DNA of 64,000 nucleotides from Candidatus Hydrogenedentota bacterium (GTDB taxonomy: Bacteria > Hydrogenedentota > Hydrogenedentia > Hydrogenedentales > SLHB01), in the NCBI GenBank assembly GCA_029552745.1, contig JAKPDK010000152.1, positions 124,001 through 188,000 of the forward strand, written 5' to 3'. Shown in pieces: positions 35,893 to 43,678 of the stretch. The notes below the pieces were generated by a model that worked only from the letters and a program-made list of their open reading frames with translations, was not told the origin of the DNA and ran no database searches. The position numbers and the translations under genes are program-made. How positions within the stretch are numbered: position 1 is the stretch's first letter; the number at the start of each line of letters is the position of its first letter.

Positions 35893-38800
35893 TTATGCTG
35901 CTGAACCTGCTTTACGGGTTTCCTCAAGTCGGGCGGAAATGATTTGGGATACACCCCGTTCTTGCATCGTGACACCGTACAGCACGTCAGCTCGGGACAT
36001 CGTCTGCTTGCTATGGGTGATAACTAAAAACTGAGTATTTTCAGCAAACTCTTCTAAAATCTGAAGAAAACGGCCTATATTCGCATCATCGAGGGGCGCG
36101 TCTACTTCATCAAGAATACAGAAAGGGGTAGGCTTCGCCTTGAGAACACTGCACAGCAAAGCAATAGCGGTTAAAGCGCTTTCACCACCCGATAGTAGTG
36201 ATATAGAAGTCGGTTTTTTCCCGGGTGGCCGCGCCTCAATTTCAATCCCGCTTTCCAAAGGATCATCCTCGTCCAAGAGATATAGTCGCGCCTGACCGCC
36301 ATTAAACAATCTGCGAAAGTAGTCGTTGAAAAGCACGGCAATTCGCTGAAATGTCTCCATAAACATTTCGCGAATCTTTTTGTCGCTTTTTGCAATGACT
36401 CCTAGTAGGGTCTCTTTTGCCTGACGGAGATCATCACATTGGGCTTTCAAAAATGCATACCGTTTCTCTAACGCCTCGTACTCTTCGATAGCCATAAGAT
36501 TCACATCGCCCATACGTTGCAAGCGTTGACGCAAATCGGCAATAACTTTTTCGCGGTCGCTGTCCTCAAAGTCGTCTTTGCCCACGGATTCTTCGGACAA
36601 AGTTGCTAAGGCGATACCGTATTCAGTCAATATTCTTTCGCAAGTGAACTGAAGCTTATCCTCGTCAGAGCGTACCTGAAGCTCCAGTTGATGAAATTCG
36701 TTTTGGGTAGTGCGAAGCTGTTCTCGGGCTTCCTTCAACGATTTCTCGATTATGTCGGTTTCGTCGAGCAGTTTTTGGCGCTGGCTTTCTAAGTCAACAA
36801 CTTTCCTGTGAGCCGCTTCTTTCTCAGAAGCGAACGAGACCAGGTTCTGCGTTTCTTGGCCAATAACCTGCTCGATTTGTCTTTGTTGGTCATGATACTC
36901 GACAAGGTTCGAGCCGCGTTTTTCGAATTCCTTCTCCAGGTCCGATTTCTCGAGCTCCAGTCGGGAGATCTCACGTTCCAATTCGCTACATCGATGGGAA
37001 AGAGCGGTCTCTGAAATCCGCAAATCTGCCAATTCCGCGGAGCATTTGTCAGCCTCTAGTCTAAACTGAGCTAAGATGTTCTGAGCTTCCGCAATGCGTT
37101 GCTCATAACTCTCCGTATCGTCTTCAAAAGCACCCGCATGTCCCAAAAGCACTTCCCTGCGATTTTGAAGTAAAACCTGTTGTTCAGCGAGCCCTGAAAG
37201 CTCCCGTTCTACCTGCTGTTGCGAACTCTCCTCAGATTGCAGTTGGGCGAGCAGACGCGTTTGACTTGTCCCGAGATCTATTATCTCCCTATCCAAACGT
37301 TTTTGAGCTTCAGTAGCCTCGCGAAACTCGTTCTGGATACCTTGTTTTGCCGAGACCAATTCCGTCAGACTCTGTTCCAGTTCTTTACTGTGTTTTTCAA
37401 TAAGCTGAATATCTTTTTCCAACTGGGTAATTTCCGCAGCCCTGCCCAAGACACCGCGTCCTTCGTGCTTCACCCTACCCCCTGTCACGGCGCCAGCGGG
37501 GGTAACCAATTCTCCTTCGAGCGTGACAAGTCGCGGGAAACGACGTTCCACACGGGCGATGACAAGAGCTACCTCCAAATCGTTTACGAGCAGTACATTG
37601 AAGAAAAGATATTCAACTGCCGCATGAATGTGCGGATCGTACTGAACAAAATCCAAAGCTTTTCCGATGACGCCGGTACGGGAAAGAAAAGGTTCGTAAT
37701 CCAAACTTTCGCTGCTTCGAATAATGTCTAATGGGAGAAACGTAACCCTGCCTGCTGCATGTTCTTTCAAGAATTGCACGGCACGTTTGGCGGTTTCGGA
37801 ATCTTCGACAATCACGTTATTAATATTGCCGCCCAACGCCGCTTCAATTGCCTTTTCATAAAGTTTATCGGTATTTACAAGGTCACCGGCAGGACCTATT
37901 ACCCCCTCCATACCGGGGATTTGGTCTGATTTAGCACGCATGATCGCTCGAACACCGATCGCAAAACCTTCATAGGAGTCCCTGAGCTCGCGCAATGATG
38001 CAAGCCTAGCTGCTAAGCTACTCTTCCGCTCCCGCAAAGACTGGATTTCCTGGTGGATTGCCCTTATTTGGTCTTCCAGGTTGAGTTCTCGGCGCTTCAA
38101 ATCACTCAGTTTTTCAGTAAGTTCCACCAGACACGACTGCTTTTCCTTTTTTTCTTTTTCCAGAACCTCCCATTTTTTATGCAATTCCGTACGCCGGTTT
38201 TCGTGTTCCACTTTTCGTCTTTGAAGGGCATCAAATTGACCTGCCAGCTCTTCAAGACGTTTCTGTAATGTTTCCAGCTCTGCTTGGATACGTGCTCGGT
38301 CATTTACGCGTTCCAGAGATGCTTGGCGAACCTTTTCTAGCCGACGTTCCGCCTCTGCGAGTTTTTCCGTCAAATTGTTTTGCTCGAGTGTCTTCACGCG
38401 GACCGAATCAACACAAGCAGCGTGCTCCCTGAAAATGGCTTCACGTGTTAAACGGACTTGCTCTAACGATTCTTGCAATCGTAATGAGCGTTCTTGCAGT
38501 TCCACCTGTTCTGTTTTGGCGCGTTCCTGTTGCTCCTGACAGAATACGATCTGCTGTTTTAAGAGGGCAATCCGATTCTCAATACGGTCTATTTCGGTCA
38601 AGATGCCGTGTACTTTTTCTCTCGCCGCAAGCAACTCTCGGTCTGCTTCCAATTTTGCCAGACCCAATTCCTCGTGACGTGCCTCCAGTGCGGTCACTTT
38701 TGTTGAGAGTTCCTCGAAACGTTCTTGAGCGTTCTTTAACTGGCTTCGTGCAACGGATAACGCGGCTTCCAACGCGCGATATTTTCCCCAAGCAGCGCGG

Positions 38801-39480
38801 ATTTCAAGTTGTCTCAGTTGTTCGTTCAGTTCTCTATACCGCATCGCAGCATGTACTTGACGTTTTAAAGAACGCATTTGGCGTTCCACTTCCGCCACAA
38901 TGTCACCCAACCGGGTGAGATTCTGTTCTGCGGACTCCAGCCGTTTTAAAGCAAGCCGTTTTCGCATTTTGTATTTCAAAATGCCTGCGGCCTCTTCAAA
39001 AATAAATCGGCGGTCCTCGGGTTTCTGGCTTAGGATAAGATCCATTTTGCCTTGACCGATAAGAGAATAGGCGTTAACACCTATCCCCGTGTCCAAAAAA
39101 AGGTCCTGAATGTCTCTTAGACGACAGGGAGTACGATTGATAAGATATTCACTTTCCCCAGAACGATAAAGACGCCGCGTGATTTGCACTTCGGCAAAGT
39201 CAACGGGCAACGACGAATCGGCATTGTCGAACACGACGGAAACTTCTGCCATTCCTGTTGCGGGACGTGTTTCGCTACCATTAAAAATCACATCTTGCAT
39301 GGTAGAGCCACGCAGCTCGCGGGTGCGTTGCTCACCCAGAACCCACCGGATGGCATCGAGGATGTTGCTCTTACCACTACCGTTCGGTCCGACTATTGCC
39401 GTTATTCCAGGTTCAAGCTGAATGACGGTTCGGTCGGCAAACGACTTAAATCCTATTATTTCTAACTGCTTAAAATACAT
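35893..39480 (-). CDS. smc: chromosome segregation ATPase SMC
   Basis: A 1195-residue SMC of the usual length. Walker [10 protein letters not shown] is at 31-39, the hinge is around 510-650 with [23 protein letters not shown] and GALVTP-like TPAGAVTGG, and long coiled coils flank it. The C-terminal head has signature [15 protein letters not shown] and Walker [17 protein letters not shown]. It forms the condensin ring with ScpA and ScpB, which are not in this window. The gene lies 52 bases downstream of ymdB, in the same direction. Confidence 0.97.
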
Positions 39481-39531
39481 GACTTTGAATATCTTCTCGA
39501 ATTGGTATCCCCGCTGGGATAGCTGAGGCCC

Positions 39532-40311
39532 TCATTCCTTTAAGCTAATTCTCTTAATGTCTTTGGCTAAGCCCGACGCATCATCAGTCATAATAAGCAC
39601 CGCATTCAGAAGGACTCGCCCCTTGGCGACCTTAAATTCCACAGGCATGCCTGTCCGAAAACGGTGGATCACTAAATCAGATTCCACCCCGATAACCGAA
39701 TCCAAAGGCCCCGTCATCCCCACGTCCGTTATGTACGCCGTTCCTTTAGGTAGAACTCTTTCGTCTGCCGTTTGCACATGAGTATGGGTACCCACCACCG
39801 CAGAACATCGGCCATCAAGAAAGAATCCCATTGCCACCTTTTCCGAGGTCGCTTCGGCATGAAAATCAACCAAAATACCACAAACATCTTTTCCGATATG
39901 GTTCAAGACTCTGTCAGCTGCTTCAAAAGGACAATCCAACGGTTCCATAAAGGTACGCCCGAGCAGGTTGATAATGCCTAATTTTCTTCCATCAGACAGT
40001 TCGTACACGATAGCCCCTTTTCCGGGGGGATCTCCTGGATAATTGGCGGGTCTCACCACATTGGCAATCGTTTCCAAATCCTTTATAAGCTCTTTGCGGC
40101 GCCACACATGGTTACCCAAAGTGGCGACATGAACTCCTGTATCGAAAAGTTCTCGTAATGTGGCCGCCGTTGCTCCTAAACCTCCCGCAATATTCTCAGC
40201 GTTCGCAATGACCACATCCGGTTGATATTCGCACACCAGCGGGAACAGCCACTTTTTTATTGCTTGTCGTCCGGGCGCTCCTACGATATCACCGATAAAT
40301 AAGATTTGCAC
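39532..40311 (-). CDS. ymdB: YmdB-family metallophosphoesterase
   Basis: A protein of 259 residues if started at GTG 40311. This is preferred because homologues begin at the strand RVQILFIGDIVGAPGR; an earlier in-frame GTG at 40362 adds 17 unmatched residues. Metal ligands are in GDIVG, NAENIAGG, GNHVW, DFHAEAT and GTHTHVQT. In Bacillus, YmdB is a 2',3'-cyclic nucleotide phosphodiesterase affecting mRNA turnover, biofilm and motility decisions, and it is encoded just after rny. The same rny-ymdB order is kept here (81 bases apart), supporting a joint role in RNA decay. Confidence 0.93.
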   Translation of the reverse strand: MQILFIGDIVGAPGRQAIKKWLFPLVCEYQPDVVIANAENIAGGLGATAATLRELFDTGVHVATLGNHVWRRKELIKDLETIANVVRPANYPGDPPGKGAIVYELSDGRKLGIINLLGRTFMEPLDCPFEAADRVLNHIGKDVCGILVDFHAEATSEKVAMGFFLDGRCSAVVGTHTHVQTADERVLPKGTAYITDVGMTGPLDSVIGVESDLVIHRFRTGMPVEFKVAKGRVLLNAVLIMTDDASGLAKDIKRISLKE

Positions 40312-40392
40312 TCTGTAAAACCCAAACGTTGAAACACACTCGAACTCAAAGAAAGAAGTCACCTATTTGCTGATTAATGAAGCAACATGCCT

Positions 40393-41958
40393 TTATTTAG
40401 CTGTTTCCGACGCGCGTGTTTCGCGAATCACAGTGATCTTCACTTGACCAGGATAGGTCATTTCTTTTTCGACTTTCTTAGCCACTTCTCTGGCCAACAT
40501 TTGTGCTTCAGCATCACTCACCTTATTGGGATACACAACAACGCGCAATTCTCGGCCAGCCTGAAGAGCATAGGATTTTTCCACACCTGGAAAGGACTGC
40601 GCTATTTGTTCCAACTGTTCCAAACGTTTGATGTAAGTCTCTATGGTTTCTCTTCTTGCACCCGGACGCGCAGCTGACAAGGCATCGGCCGCCTGAACAA
40701 GGACGGCGATAACAGATTCTTGCTCCATTTCGTTGTGATGAGACCCGATTGCATTGGCAACAACATCCGATTCGCCATATCTCTTGGCAAAATCACGGCC
40801 GATTATCGCGTGCGAACCCTCAACTTCATGATTGAGAGCCTTTCCAATATCGTGAATCAACCCCGCTCGCTTGGCTTCCTGGATGGGTAACCCCAGCTCA
40901 GCAGCCATGAGTCCCGCCAGATGACAAACCTCTTTGGAGTGCTGCAACACGTTTTGACCATAAGAAGTGCGGTAATTCAGACGTCCCAATAATTTAACAA
41001 TTTCGGGATGAAGTCCATGAACATCAACTTCCAAACATGTTTGTTCCCCTATTTCCCGAATCGTCTTTGCCATCTCTTCTTCAACTCTGTTTACGACCTC
41101 CTCTATACGCGCGGGATGAATCCGGCCATCCTGAATTAGTCGCTCAAGAGCGATCCGTGCAGTCTCGCGACGTACAGGGTCAAAACCGGAAAGCACGACG
41201 GCTTCCGGGGTATCATCGATGATGATATTCACGCCCGTAGCGCTTTCCAGGGTTCGAATATTCCTACCCTCGCGTCCAATAATTCGACCTTTCATCTCGT
41301 CATTGGGAAGAGCCACAACGGATACTACCGATTCAGCCACATGGTCCGCCGCGCAACGCTGAATGGCTTGGGTAATAATCCATTTGGCTTTTTTGTCTGC
41401 ATTCTCAATTAACTCATCTTCAATACGTTTCAACCGGACCGCAGCATCGCGACGGACCTCTGCCTCGAGTTGGGCAAAAAGTTCCTTCTTAGCTTCCTCC
41501 GCCGGCATATTTGCAATAGCCTCGAGTCGCTTGGTCTGCTCAGCAATCAGTCCTTCAAGAACCCGTCCCCGCTCCGCAATTTCCTCCTTCCTCTTTTCTA
41601 GCGTCCGTTCCAAGGCCTTAAGCTCAGCCGCCTTGTGCTCCATGGACTCGATGCGCTTATCGAGAGACTCTTCTTTTGCCAGAATCCGCTTTTCAAGCGC
41701 GACCAGTTCTTTCCGCTGTTCTCGTGCCTCCCTTTCAGCTCTTTCGCGGACCTCGATCCGCATTTCTTTGATTTCAGTCTCGGCTTCCTTGATCTTTGCG
41801 TAGGCTTCCCGTTCTGCGTCCGAAATCAGCTGCTCCGCTTTCTTCTTCGCTTGACCCAACAAGCGTCTACCGAGAAGTTGGCCGCCGACTAACGCAAAAA
41901 CAATACCCAGCACTACGCCAAGACCCATCCACAGAATCACAAATGGATCAAAAGGCAT
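40393..41958 (-). CDS. rny: ribonuclease Y
   Basis: A 521-residue endoribonuclease. One N-terminal membrane helix ([20 protein letters not shown]), a long charged coiled coil (about 30-200), a KH domain with [13 protein letters not shown], and an HD domain with [12 protein letters not shown] and [19 protein letters not shown] giving the His-Asp metal site. ATG 41958 is chosen because AGGAG lies six bases upstream; the earlier ATG at 41973 would place that site inside the gene. It starts mRNA decay at the inner membrane. A 260-base structured leader with its own strong promoter lies in front, which may control it. Confidence 0.96.
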
Positions 41959-41974
41959 AGTATTCTCCTTCATA

Positions 41975-41989
41975 CCATAAGAGTTATGG
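41975..41989 (-). promoter_or_regulatory. hairpin just before the rny ribosome site
   Basis: On the minus strand CCATAA-CTC-TTATGG forms a perfect 6-bp stem, ending five bases before AAGGAG (41970-41965). It shares two bases with the outer stem of the upstream RNA structure, so the two pairings may compete. Confidence 0.5.
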
Positions 41990-42220
41990 AACGCCCCTCA
42001 AGGAATGAGGCCGAAACCTCTTTGGAGATGATGGTGTAAGTCTAGAAATCCCTATGAATTACGGACAAAAAGGCTCCGCCGATTCTTTCTGCTCAAGAAG
42101 AGCATCTGAAAGGTGCTGTTCATCATATGGAAAACCACCTGAATGGGAAAAGTCTAGACAATCCATCATACCAACCATTGGTCAGTACCCTTTCTTAAGG
42201 GTGCGTCCTCGTTGCTAACA
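41988..42220 (-). ncRNA. structured RNA: 6S-like RNA or long rny leader
   Basis: This covers most of the 319-base stretch without a protein gene before rny. From a predicted start near 42220 the minus-strand transcript can fold end to end. An outer stem pairs 42208-42197 (GGACGCACCCTT) with 41999-41988 (GAGGGGCGTTCC) with two bulges. An inner stem pairs 42169-42163 (ATGATGG) with 42034-42028 (CCATCAT). Next is 42159-42153 (GTCTAGA) with 42046-42040 (TCTAGAC), and small hairpins such as TGCTC-TTCTT-GAGCA lie at the tip. Ends that pair with each other and a strong promoter are features of 6S RNA, which in several phyla lies before rny. RNase-gene leaders that control their own decay are the alternative. 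No Rfam search was possible. Confidence 0.5.
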
Positions 42221-42226
42221 AAATTC

Positions 42227-42255
42227 AGTATAGGAATATTGAACACTAAAGTCAA
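42227..42255 (-). promoter_or_regulatory. strong sigma-70-type promoter for the rny leader/ncRNA
   Basis: TTGACT (42255-42250), exactly 17 bases, TATACT (42232-42227): one of the best promoters seen in the window. It points toward rny, with the transcript start expected at about 42220, some 260 bases before the rny ATG. Confidence 0.7.
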
Positions 42256-42277
42256 CTTAAAAAAGGAGAAGACGAGA

Positions 42278-43678
42278 TTACGTTGTCCACTCGGCAACAG
42301 GTTCAGGAAGCACTCGGGGAATCTTCTCCAAACAATAGCCAAACCCTGAGCCTTTCAAAGTTGATAAATCAAGACACCCTTCTCTTCTTGAGTAAAGCCC
42401 GGGGTGAACGGTGGCTTCGGGGAGCGATGCATCAGGATAAAACTGCATGCCGTTTGTCTCAACCCCCATAATAGTTCCCGCATGTCTCGCTAGTTGCACA
42501 TGAGGGATCTGGGCAAGCATCGGATTGGTTAAGTCTTGCACCATCAAGGTCATACCATGCGCTTTTGCCCAAGAAAGCGTTAACAAGGCACCGGTTTGGG
42601 TCTTACATGTCTTCAAAGCGACCCCAGACCACCCTAATTCACGGCCTAATTTAACCAGTCTCCAATCGTGTGCACTTTCATCCATAAAGAGGGGTTTTCT
42701 GGCCGAAACGCTATGAACGTCAATCAAATTATTCTCTAAGTCATAAGGGAATGGTTGTTCCACATACAAAAGCATGCCGTAGATTCTGGGGTGCTCCTTC
42801 AAAAGTCTATCCAAAATCTCATTTACATAAGCAGGGTCTCGCACGGTACAATTGAAGTCTGCAGAGAGCCAATGGCAGTCATTTTCGATGGCAATATTTC
42901 CCACTTGGACGATTCTGGCATAATCCCAAGCAGCATCATTGCCACGCAGTTTAATTTTGAGACATTTTAAGCCATCTCTTTTGATCCAGTCTGTCAAGAC
43001 GACGGGATAACCATCCTTTGGGTCATCTGGGGAGGCCTCCTTGTGTGTTAATTTGTCCATACCTCCAACCAGGTGCCATGCAACTAATTTGTCCGGAGGG
43101 GACACAAAGTAATCTGCCGGATAACGGCCTTCAAACCGATTCTTTCTGCCTTTTGAATCGGTCAGGTAATACGCCAAATCAAAGTTTAGGTATTCAGACG
43201 AATATGTCTCATAAACGGGGACACCATGTGAATTTCCAAAGGCGTCATGGAGCGCTATGTCAAAGGGACTGCAAGAAACCAAAGCGGCAAGCCAAGGCAT
43301 GTGCGTTTCTGGCGTTCCATCATTTTCCTCTTTTAGAAGCTCTGGTAATACATCCGTTTGAAAAGCTTGTCCAATTTCAATAGGGTGTCCCCAGTATGGG
43401 AACGTAGACCAAGCTCTAGTTAACTTCTTTGTAAAACTGGTAACTTTTGCATATCGAGTTTCATAAGGGATTTCACTTGGCCAAATCCATTGGATGCTTA
43501 GCGGCGTTTCTCCCCAGCCGACGGCATATTTGCCATTTTTGCTCTCAATTGTCATTTTTACTCGCGCACAAGTTACTGTCGTAACCGTTTCGGGTCCGAA
43601 TTTCAGCGGAATACGGGTCTTAATGGGGAGAAAATATAAGGAAGCGGCGATGACGCGGATGTCGGTATTCTTAGTCAC
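42278..43678 (-). CDS. enolase-superfamily enzyme (mandelate racemase/muconate-lactonising type)
   Basis: A 466-residue enolase-superfamily protein. The KxK pair is K241/K243 (CLKIKLRG), metal ligands Asp274 (SADFNC), Glu307 (YVEQPFP) and Asp333 (FMDES), and the opposite base Lys356 or Lys359 (LKTCKTQTG). Having Lys on both sides points to the MLE/dipeptide-epimerase/OSBS side of the superfamily, but longer than usual (about 360-400), with an extended region near 155-225. GTG start with AAAGGA upstream. Likely acid-sugar dehydratase, racemase or epimerase; substrate not predictable. The rny RNA promoter begins 23 bases after its stop codon. Confidence 0.82.
   Translation of the reverse strand: MTKNTDIRVIAASLYFLPIKTRIPLKFGPETVTTVTCARVKMTIESKNGKYAVGWGETPLSIQWIWPSEIPYETRYAKVTSFTKKLTRAWSTFPYWGHPIEIGQAFQTDVLPELLKEENDGTPETHMPWLAALVSCSPFDIALHDAFGNSHGVPVYETYSSEYLNFDLAYYLTDSKGRKNRFEGRYPADYFVSPPDKLVAWHLVGGMDKLTHKEASPDDPKDGYPVVLTDWIKRDGLKCLKIKLRGNDAAWDYARIVQVGNIAIENDCHWLSADFNCTVRDPAYVNEILDRLLKEHPRIYGMLLYVEQPFPYDLENNLIDVHSVSARKPLFMDESAHDWRLVKLGRELGWSGVALKTCKTQTGALLTLSWAKAHGMTLMVQDLTNPMLAQIPHVQLARHAGTIMGVETNGMQFYPDASLPEATVHPGLYSRREGCLDLSTLKGSGFGYCLEKIPRVLPEPVAEWTT

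Follow-up and report, generated by a model that had tools for sequence, protein, structure and literature searches.

A conserved end-paired RNA in front of the ribonuclease Y gene in Candidatus Hydrogenedentota

Introduction

In a genome of Candidatus Hydrogenedentota, the DNA just upstream of rny, the gene for ribonuclease Y (RNase Y), appears to encode a strongly promoted RNA whose two ends pair with each other. This raises the question of whether it is a separate RNA, for example 6S RNA, or a leader through which the rny message is controlled. To our knowledge, the setting of the amount of the main mRNA-decay enzyme is understood in only a few model species. Here, we have analyzed this locus in a window of 64,000 nucleotides (the whole stretch of DNA examined) and compared it with related genomes. 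All 68 genomes sampled from the phylum belong to one order.

Organization of the locus and fold of the leader

The nearest relatives by protein search were Candidatus Hydrogenedentota. Between rny and an enolase/racemase-like gene (42278-43678) lies a minus-strand gap of 304 nt (41974-42277). The listed rny open reading frame covers 40393-41973; comparison with related rny genes showed that the conserved start codon is the ATG at 41958 and not the one at 41973. The gene order rny - TIGR00282 metallophosphoesterase - smc was observed at 35893-41973 on the minus strand. The features of the region are as follows:

42250..42255, minus strand: -35 element TTGACT, supported by a promoter at the same distance in relatives
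42227..42232, minus strand: -10 element TATACT after a 17-nt spacer, with the predicted RNA start at about 42220
41959..42221, minus strand: predicted rny 5' leader RNA of about 263 nt, on the basis of fold, promoter position and arm covariation
42145..42208, minus strand: 5' arm of the rod (GGACGC, CCCUUAAG, GGGU, GACC, UUGG, AUGAUGG, GUCUAGA, UCCC), from the pair list and the antidiagonal signal
42053..42144, minus strand: central part, predicted to be more branched, from the alignments of relatives
41989..42052, minus strand: 3' arm of the rod (GGGA, UCUAGAC, CCAUCAU, CCAA, GGUU, GCCU, CUUGAGGG, GCGUUC), from the pair list and the antidiagonal signal
41975..41989, minus strand: predicted hairpin CCAUAA-CUC-UUAUGG just 5' of the rny Shine-Dalgarno sequence
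41965..41970, minus strand: rny Shine-Dalgarno sequence AAGGAG, read from the sequence
40393..41958, minus strand: rny, ribonuclease Y (TIGR03319, 716.6 bits; cutoff 454.35)

The RNA from 42222 to 41985 folds at -80.7 kcal/mol, compared with -62.6 +/- 4.5 kcal/mol for dinucleotide shuffles (z = -4.0), and none of 200 such shuffles folded as well. Its closing stem has two parts, GGACGC (42208-42203) with GCGUUC (41994-41989) and CCCUUAAG (42201-42194) with CUUGAGGG (42002-41995). Two inner stems pair AUGAUGG (42169-42163) with CCAUCAU (42034-42028) and GUCUAGA (42159-42153) with UCUAGAC (42046-42040). Several of these elements had been proposed in an earlier note on this DNA. The TTGACT-17-TATACT promoter that it placed before rny is indeed present, matching the sigma-70 consensus at 10 of 12 positions (0.6 sites of at least 9/12 are expected by chance per 601 nt). 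Both inner long-range stems were located exactly, and the hairpin at the rny ribosome site was found a few bases before AAGGAG. The two ends also pair as had been suggested, whereas the outer coordinates proposed for them were a few bases off, because the closing stem is formed by the two segment pairs given above.

The rod makes up most of the leader; its end here is some 30 nt from the start codon, and in all members the distance is about 30-45 nt. The central part is branched and differs between species, and the end-paired rod around it was confirmed. In relatives, the hairpin adjacent to the Shine-Dalgarno sequence is mostly of the form CCCC..GGGG and varies in sequence. Predicted pairing stops at most 3 nt from the Shine-Dalgarno match in 83% of 47 RNAs, which is a statistically weak signal with a mean fold z of only -1.2.

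Distribution of the promoter and the leader in related genomes

A promoter scoring at least 10/12 and lying 275-355 nt before the rny start codon was identified in 46 of the 55 relatives with enough upstream sequence. The chance rate in this band, estimated from shuffled sequence, was 0.9% of loci, and among genomes of other phyla such a promoter occurred in 2 of 20. In each of six loci fetched later, the promoter was in place and scored 11 or 12 of 12. The nine exceptions consisted of five members of family f4 and four of genus g24. In the former (L061, L065, L089, L091 and L098), a promoter was observed 424-513 nt before rny, a position that would lengthen the RNA by 100-200 nt. In the latter (L095-L097 and L102), the nearby promoter has only a clear TATAAT, and the same folded core is kept.

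At the level of DNA similarity, a search of 60 relatives with the leader yielded chance matches only, and no similarity was detectable in other genera; rny itself was found in nearly all of these relatives. The best DNA match to the leader (L002) falls inside an apparent coding gene and was rejected. The gene upstream of the leader varies among genomes, and the leader stays with rny. For this sample of one order, nearly all examinable Hydrogenedentota appear to begin the rny mRNA with the same kind of end-paired RNA.

Covariation between the two arms

Considering that alignment is unreliable at such divergence, an alignment-free arm-swap test was used, in which duplexes between the 5' arm (first 80 nt) and the 3' arm (-105 to -20, counted from rny) were scored by energy for 43 RNAs. 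Duplex energy was -50.7 kcal/mol for own arms and -39.3 kcal/mol for arms swapped between species. The cognate-arm advantage was about 11.2 kcal/mol, with z = -13.3 by permutation after removal of row and column effects, a value that should not be taken as an exact probability because the species are not fully independent. It should be noted that the test is conservative, since the non-cognate pairs include close relatives. With the same geometry, control regions gave z = +2.0 and -0.8 (rny coding sequence) and z = -0.6 (upstream of the promoter). When the arms were scanned in sliding windows, the signal formed a single antidiagonal running from +10..+34 with about -30..-64 through +60..+84 with about -80..-104 (z to -6.9), which is the mark of one long imperfect rod.

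Equivalent helix places are occupied in different genera by CUGGCCA/UGGCCAG, UUGCGUGGA/UCCACGCGG, UCCACGAGGAA/UUCCUCGUGGG and CCGGC/GCCGG; that is, the letters of the closing helix vary freely and the pairing is kept. For the loci fetched later, all six 5' arms ranked the cognate 3' arm at 0.13 or better, whereas cognate preference was less marked from the side of the 3' arm (rank 0.20 to 0.67). The consensus for genus g24 taken by itself contained 61 pairs, 13 of which showed two-sided change. The closing stem of its four members is GAAAAGGU/ACCUUUUC, and mid-leader hairpins followed by U runs were also observed in them.

When arm alignments were joined end to end, RNAalifold returned consensus folds no stronger than those obtained when the 3' arms were redistributed over the species, since the letters of the closing helix are kept inside each subgroup but do not align from one subgroup to another. 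Therefore, no R-scape-style per-pair statistics are claimed for the phylum. Full-length structural alignment of the leaders with a Sankoff-type aligner was uninformative. By the arm-swap test, covariation was found in the rny upstream regions of relatives, and the rod structure is conserved by compensatory change and is under selection as RNA. Its conservation across the phylum argues that the leader structure is not due to chance: the shape was kept while the letters changed. More generally, swapping arms between species can expose conserved RNA structure where alignment fails.

A conserved sequence block inside the rod

Most families share a block inside the rod, approximately GGCAAGGA-N-UU...CGGAUG...CGCC-loop-GGCG-GUUNNNAUAU. 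On the basis of alignments, the version in the window is CCCAUUCAGGUGGUUUUCCAUAU, located in the central part (42053..42144) or at its border. A sequence model of this block (R1) was searched over the 68 genomes, and its 16 best places were all upstream of rny. The model picked up leaders outside its seed (for example, in G066, G061, G011, G021 and G003) and missed many true leaders, that of the source genome among them. No significant unlinked copy was observed in the 68 genomes (best E = 0.025, close to what chance would give across this many genomes), which is weak evidence for the absence of such copies because the model uses sequence only and carries about 27 bits.

Known RNA families, coding capacity and attenuation

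An Rfam search of the window locus, down to E 10, gave nothing but one chance lncRNA match, and no match was obtained for the leaders of 40 relatives. The 6S identity considered in the earlier note found no support. The leader does resemble 6S RNA (RF00013) in having a rod of about 200 nt with paired ends and a strong promoter; its central part, however, is more branched, and neither RF00013 nor RF01685 matched at the leader locus or in the 40 relatives at any threshold tried. Moreover, like most of the genomes searched, the source genome has a genuine 6S gene elsewhere (G000:C23:46170-46351; RF00013, 56.4 bits), and among the 41 phylum genomes with RF00013 matches (36 over the cut-off), none of these matches was at rny. 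An identification of the leader as 6S RNA, or as a further 6S RNA of this genome, is therefore extremely improbable. The 6S gene is on the same contig, outside the window, about 78 kb before the window start.

The possibility of a new RNA class, also raised in the earlier note, fared better: the covariation and the negative Rfam results strongly support a structured RNA that is conserved, linked to rny and had not been described before. A long leader on the gene of a decay RNase is of a known kind, and the phylum-wide end-paired rod found there matches no Rfam family. Among open-access papers on Hydrogenedentes and noncoding RNA, nothing relevant was found (subscription papers were outside the search).

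Coding capacity was also considered. An ATG about 10 nt after AAGG is present in nine relatives (L038, L040, L042, L045, L047, L051, L052, L057 and L079), and several of the resulting peptides share R..GG, as might be expected if a leader peptide or small protein gene controlled rny. However, many members have no such ATG, and in nine close pairs the substitutions were spread evenly over the three positions and most pairs contained frame-breaking gaps, on which grounds the leader was rejected as coding sequence. In the same pairs, rny displayed a strong third-position bias, whereas the leader had no codon periodicity; in divergent pairs with a long rny overlap, the leader changed more slowly than the third codon positions of rny. 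Control of rny by an encoded peptide thus seems very improbable, and a very short peptide may be present in the nine relatives with the ATG.

A riboswitch or attenuator was not supported either. Under strict criteria, intrinsic terminators between the leader and rny were found in 1 of 47 relatives, against 1.2 expected, that is, none beyond chance. Access to the Shine-Dalgarno sequence was unchanged by the own leader: the probability of its being unpaired was 0.29 for the own leader, against 0.31 for a foreign and 0.27 for a shuffled leader, giving no sign of sequestration controlled by the rod. In L086 and L094 (f10), a mid-leader GC hairpin (AACCGCC...GGCGGUUUUUUU) resembles an intrinsic terminator and may permit attenuation in this genus.

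Possible functions of the leader

Several RNase genes in other bacteria have comparable leaders. In Bacillus subtilis, RNase Y autoregulates via cleavage of the 164-nt rny 5' UTR and the early coding region, with the strongest cuts in an AU-rich first 50 nt that has a single stem-loop (PMC10303841). The same gene, a long leader, an own sigma-A promoter and a strong structured ribosome site are common to both cases, whereas the Hydrogenedentota leader, known from sequence alone, is about 100 nt longer and consists mostly of an end-paired rod conserved across the phylum. We know of no such rod in the B. subtilis rny leader. Feedback control of RNase E has been described for Escherichia coli rne, which autoregulates through a 361-nt 5' UTR, and for cyanobacterial rne, whose leaders of 458-622 nt leave abundant fragments of 200-500 nt (PMC10989929). 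These systems share with the present one a very long leader before the gene of a main decay endonuclease, acting in cis in E. coli, where a bound stem-loop expedites cleavage elsewhere; they differ in enzyme and lineage, and there is no sequence or Rfam match.

The window likewise appears to hold a long same-strand leader with a promoter of its own, continuous with the RNase gene. We lean towards the view that this RNA is a structured 5' leader of the rny mRNA that lets RNase Y activity set the rny mRNA level. A role as RNase Y sensor, the third possibility in the earlier note, is plausible by precedent. In the proposed mechanism, transcription from a strong sigma-70-type promoter would yield the leader (about 263 nt); the greater part of it would fold into the end-closed rod, and the small hairpin would then precede the Shine-Dalgarno sequence. 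Free RNase Y could attach to or cleave single-stranded stretches of the leader, or a site immediately 5' of the hairpin. Cleavage would remove the rny message, so that synthesis would fall when the enzyme is in excess, and the cleaved rod, about 200-230 nt long, may persist in stable form. Action in cis is the most economical explanation because of the linkage to rny, the lack of a terminator, the end of the rod 30-45 nt upstream and the precedents among RNase leaders. Counting against this view, folding predicted no change in Shine-Dalgarno access due to the rod. Selection has probably acted for a long time on the control of rny through its own 5' end.

That the rod is self-contained would fit an independent RNA equally well; this feature, together with the nearly perfect promoter, keeps a released, trans-acting RNA under consideration. 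Such a rod-shaped RNA might be an RNase Y cofactor, a decoy or a polymerase-binding RNA, with rny expressed by read-through or after processing. The strong, almost invariant promoter would fit this idea, as would the closure of the rod on itself before the rny ribosome site without shaping its access, and cyanobacterial rne provides known examples of stable 5'-UTR fragments (PMC10989929). However, no terminator follows the RNA, the distance from the rod to the rny start is always about 30-45 nt, and none of 68 genomes yielded a significant copy away from rny, although the search relied on a short, weak model that overlooked many true leaders. A separate RNA acting in trans therefore appears rather unlikely. 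We are similarly tentative about a new class of rod RNA that would be released from the rny leader and act both on RNase Y (as decoy, sensor or cofactor) and on its own message; if the RNA is released in this way, RNase Y would carry its own regulatory RNA in the whole phylum.

mRNA is commonly stabilised by end-paired rods and by 5' structures, and the rod and hairpin might do no more than shield the 5' end of the rny mRNA against 5'-dependent decay or insulate it, with no feedback. The freedom of the closing-helix sequence to vary while pairing is kept agrees with such a passive role. However, protection alone would not call for a rod of about 200 nt together with a phylum-wide block (AAGGA ... 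CGCC/GGCG-GUUNNNAUAU), and we consider a passive leader quite unlikely.

Whichever way it acts, the leader, an element missing from Rfam, offers a defined RNA for testing RNase Y recognition. The source genome also encodes an RNase E/G family protein, and RNase Y may therefore not be its sole decay endonuclease.
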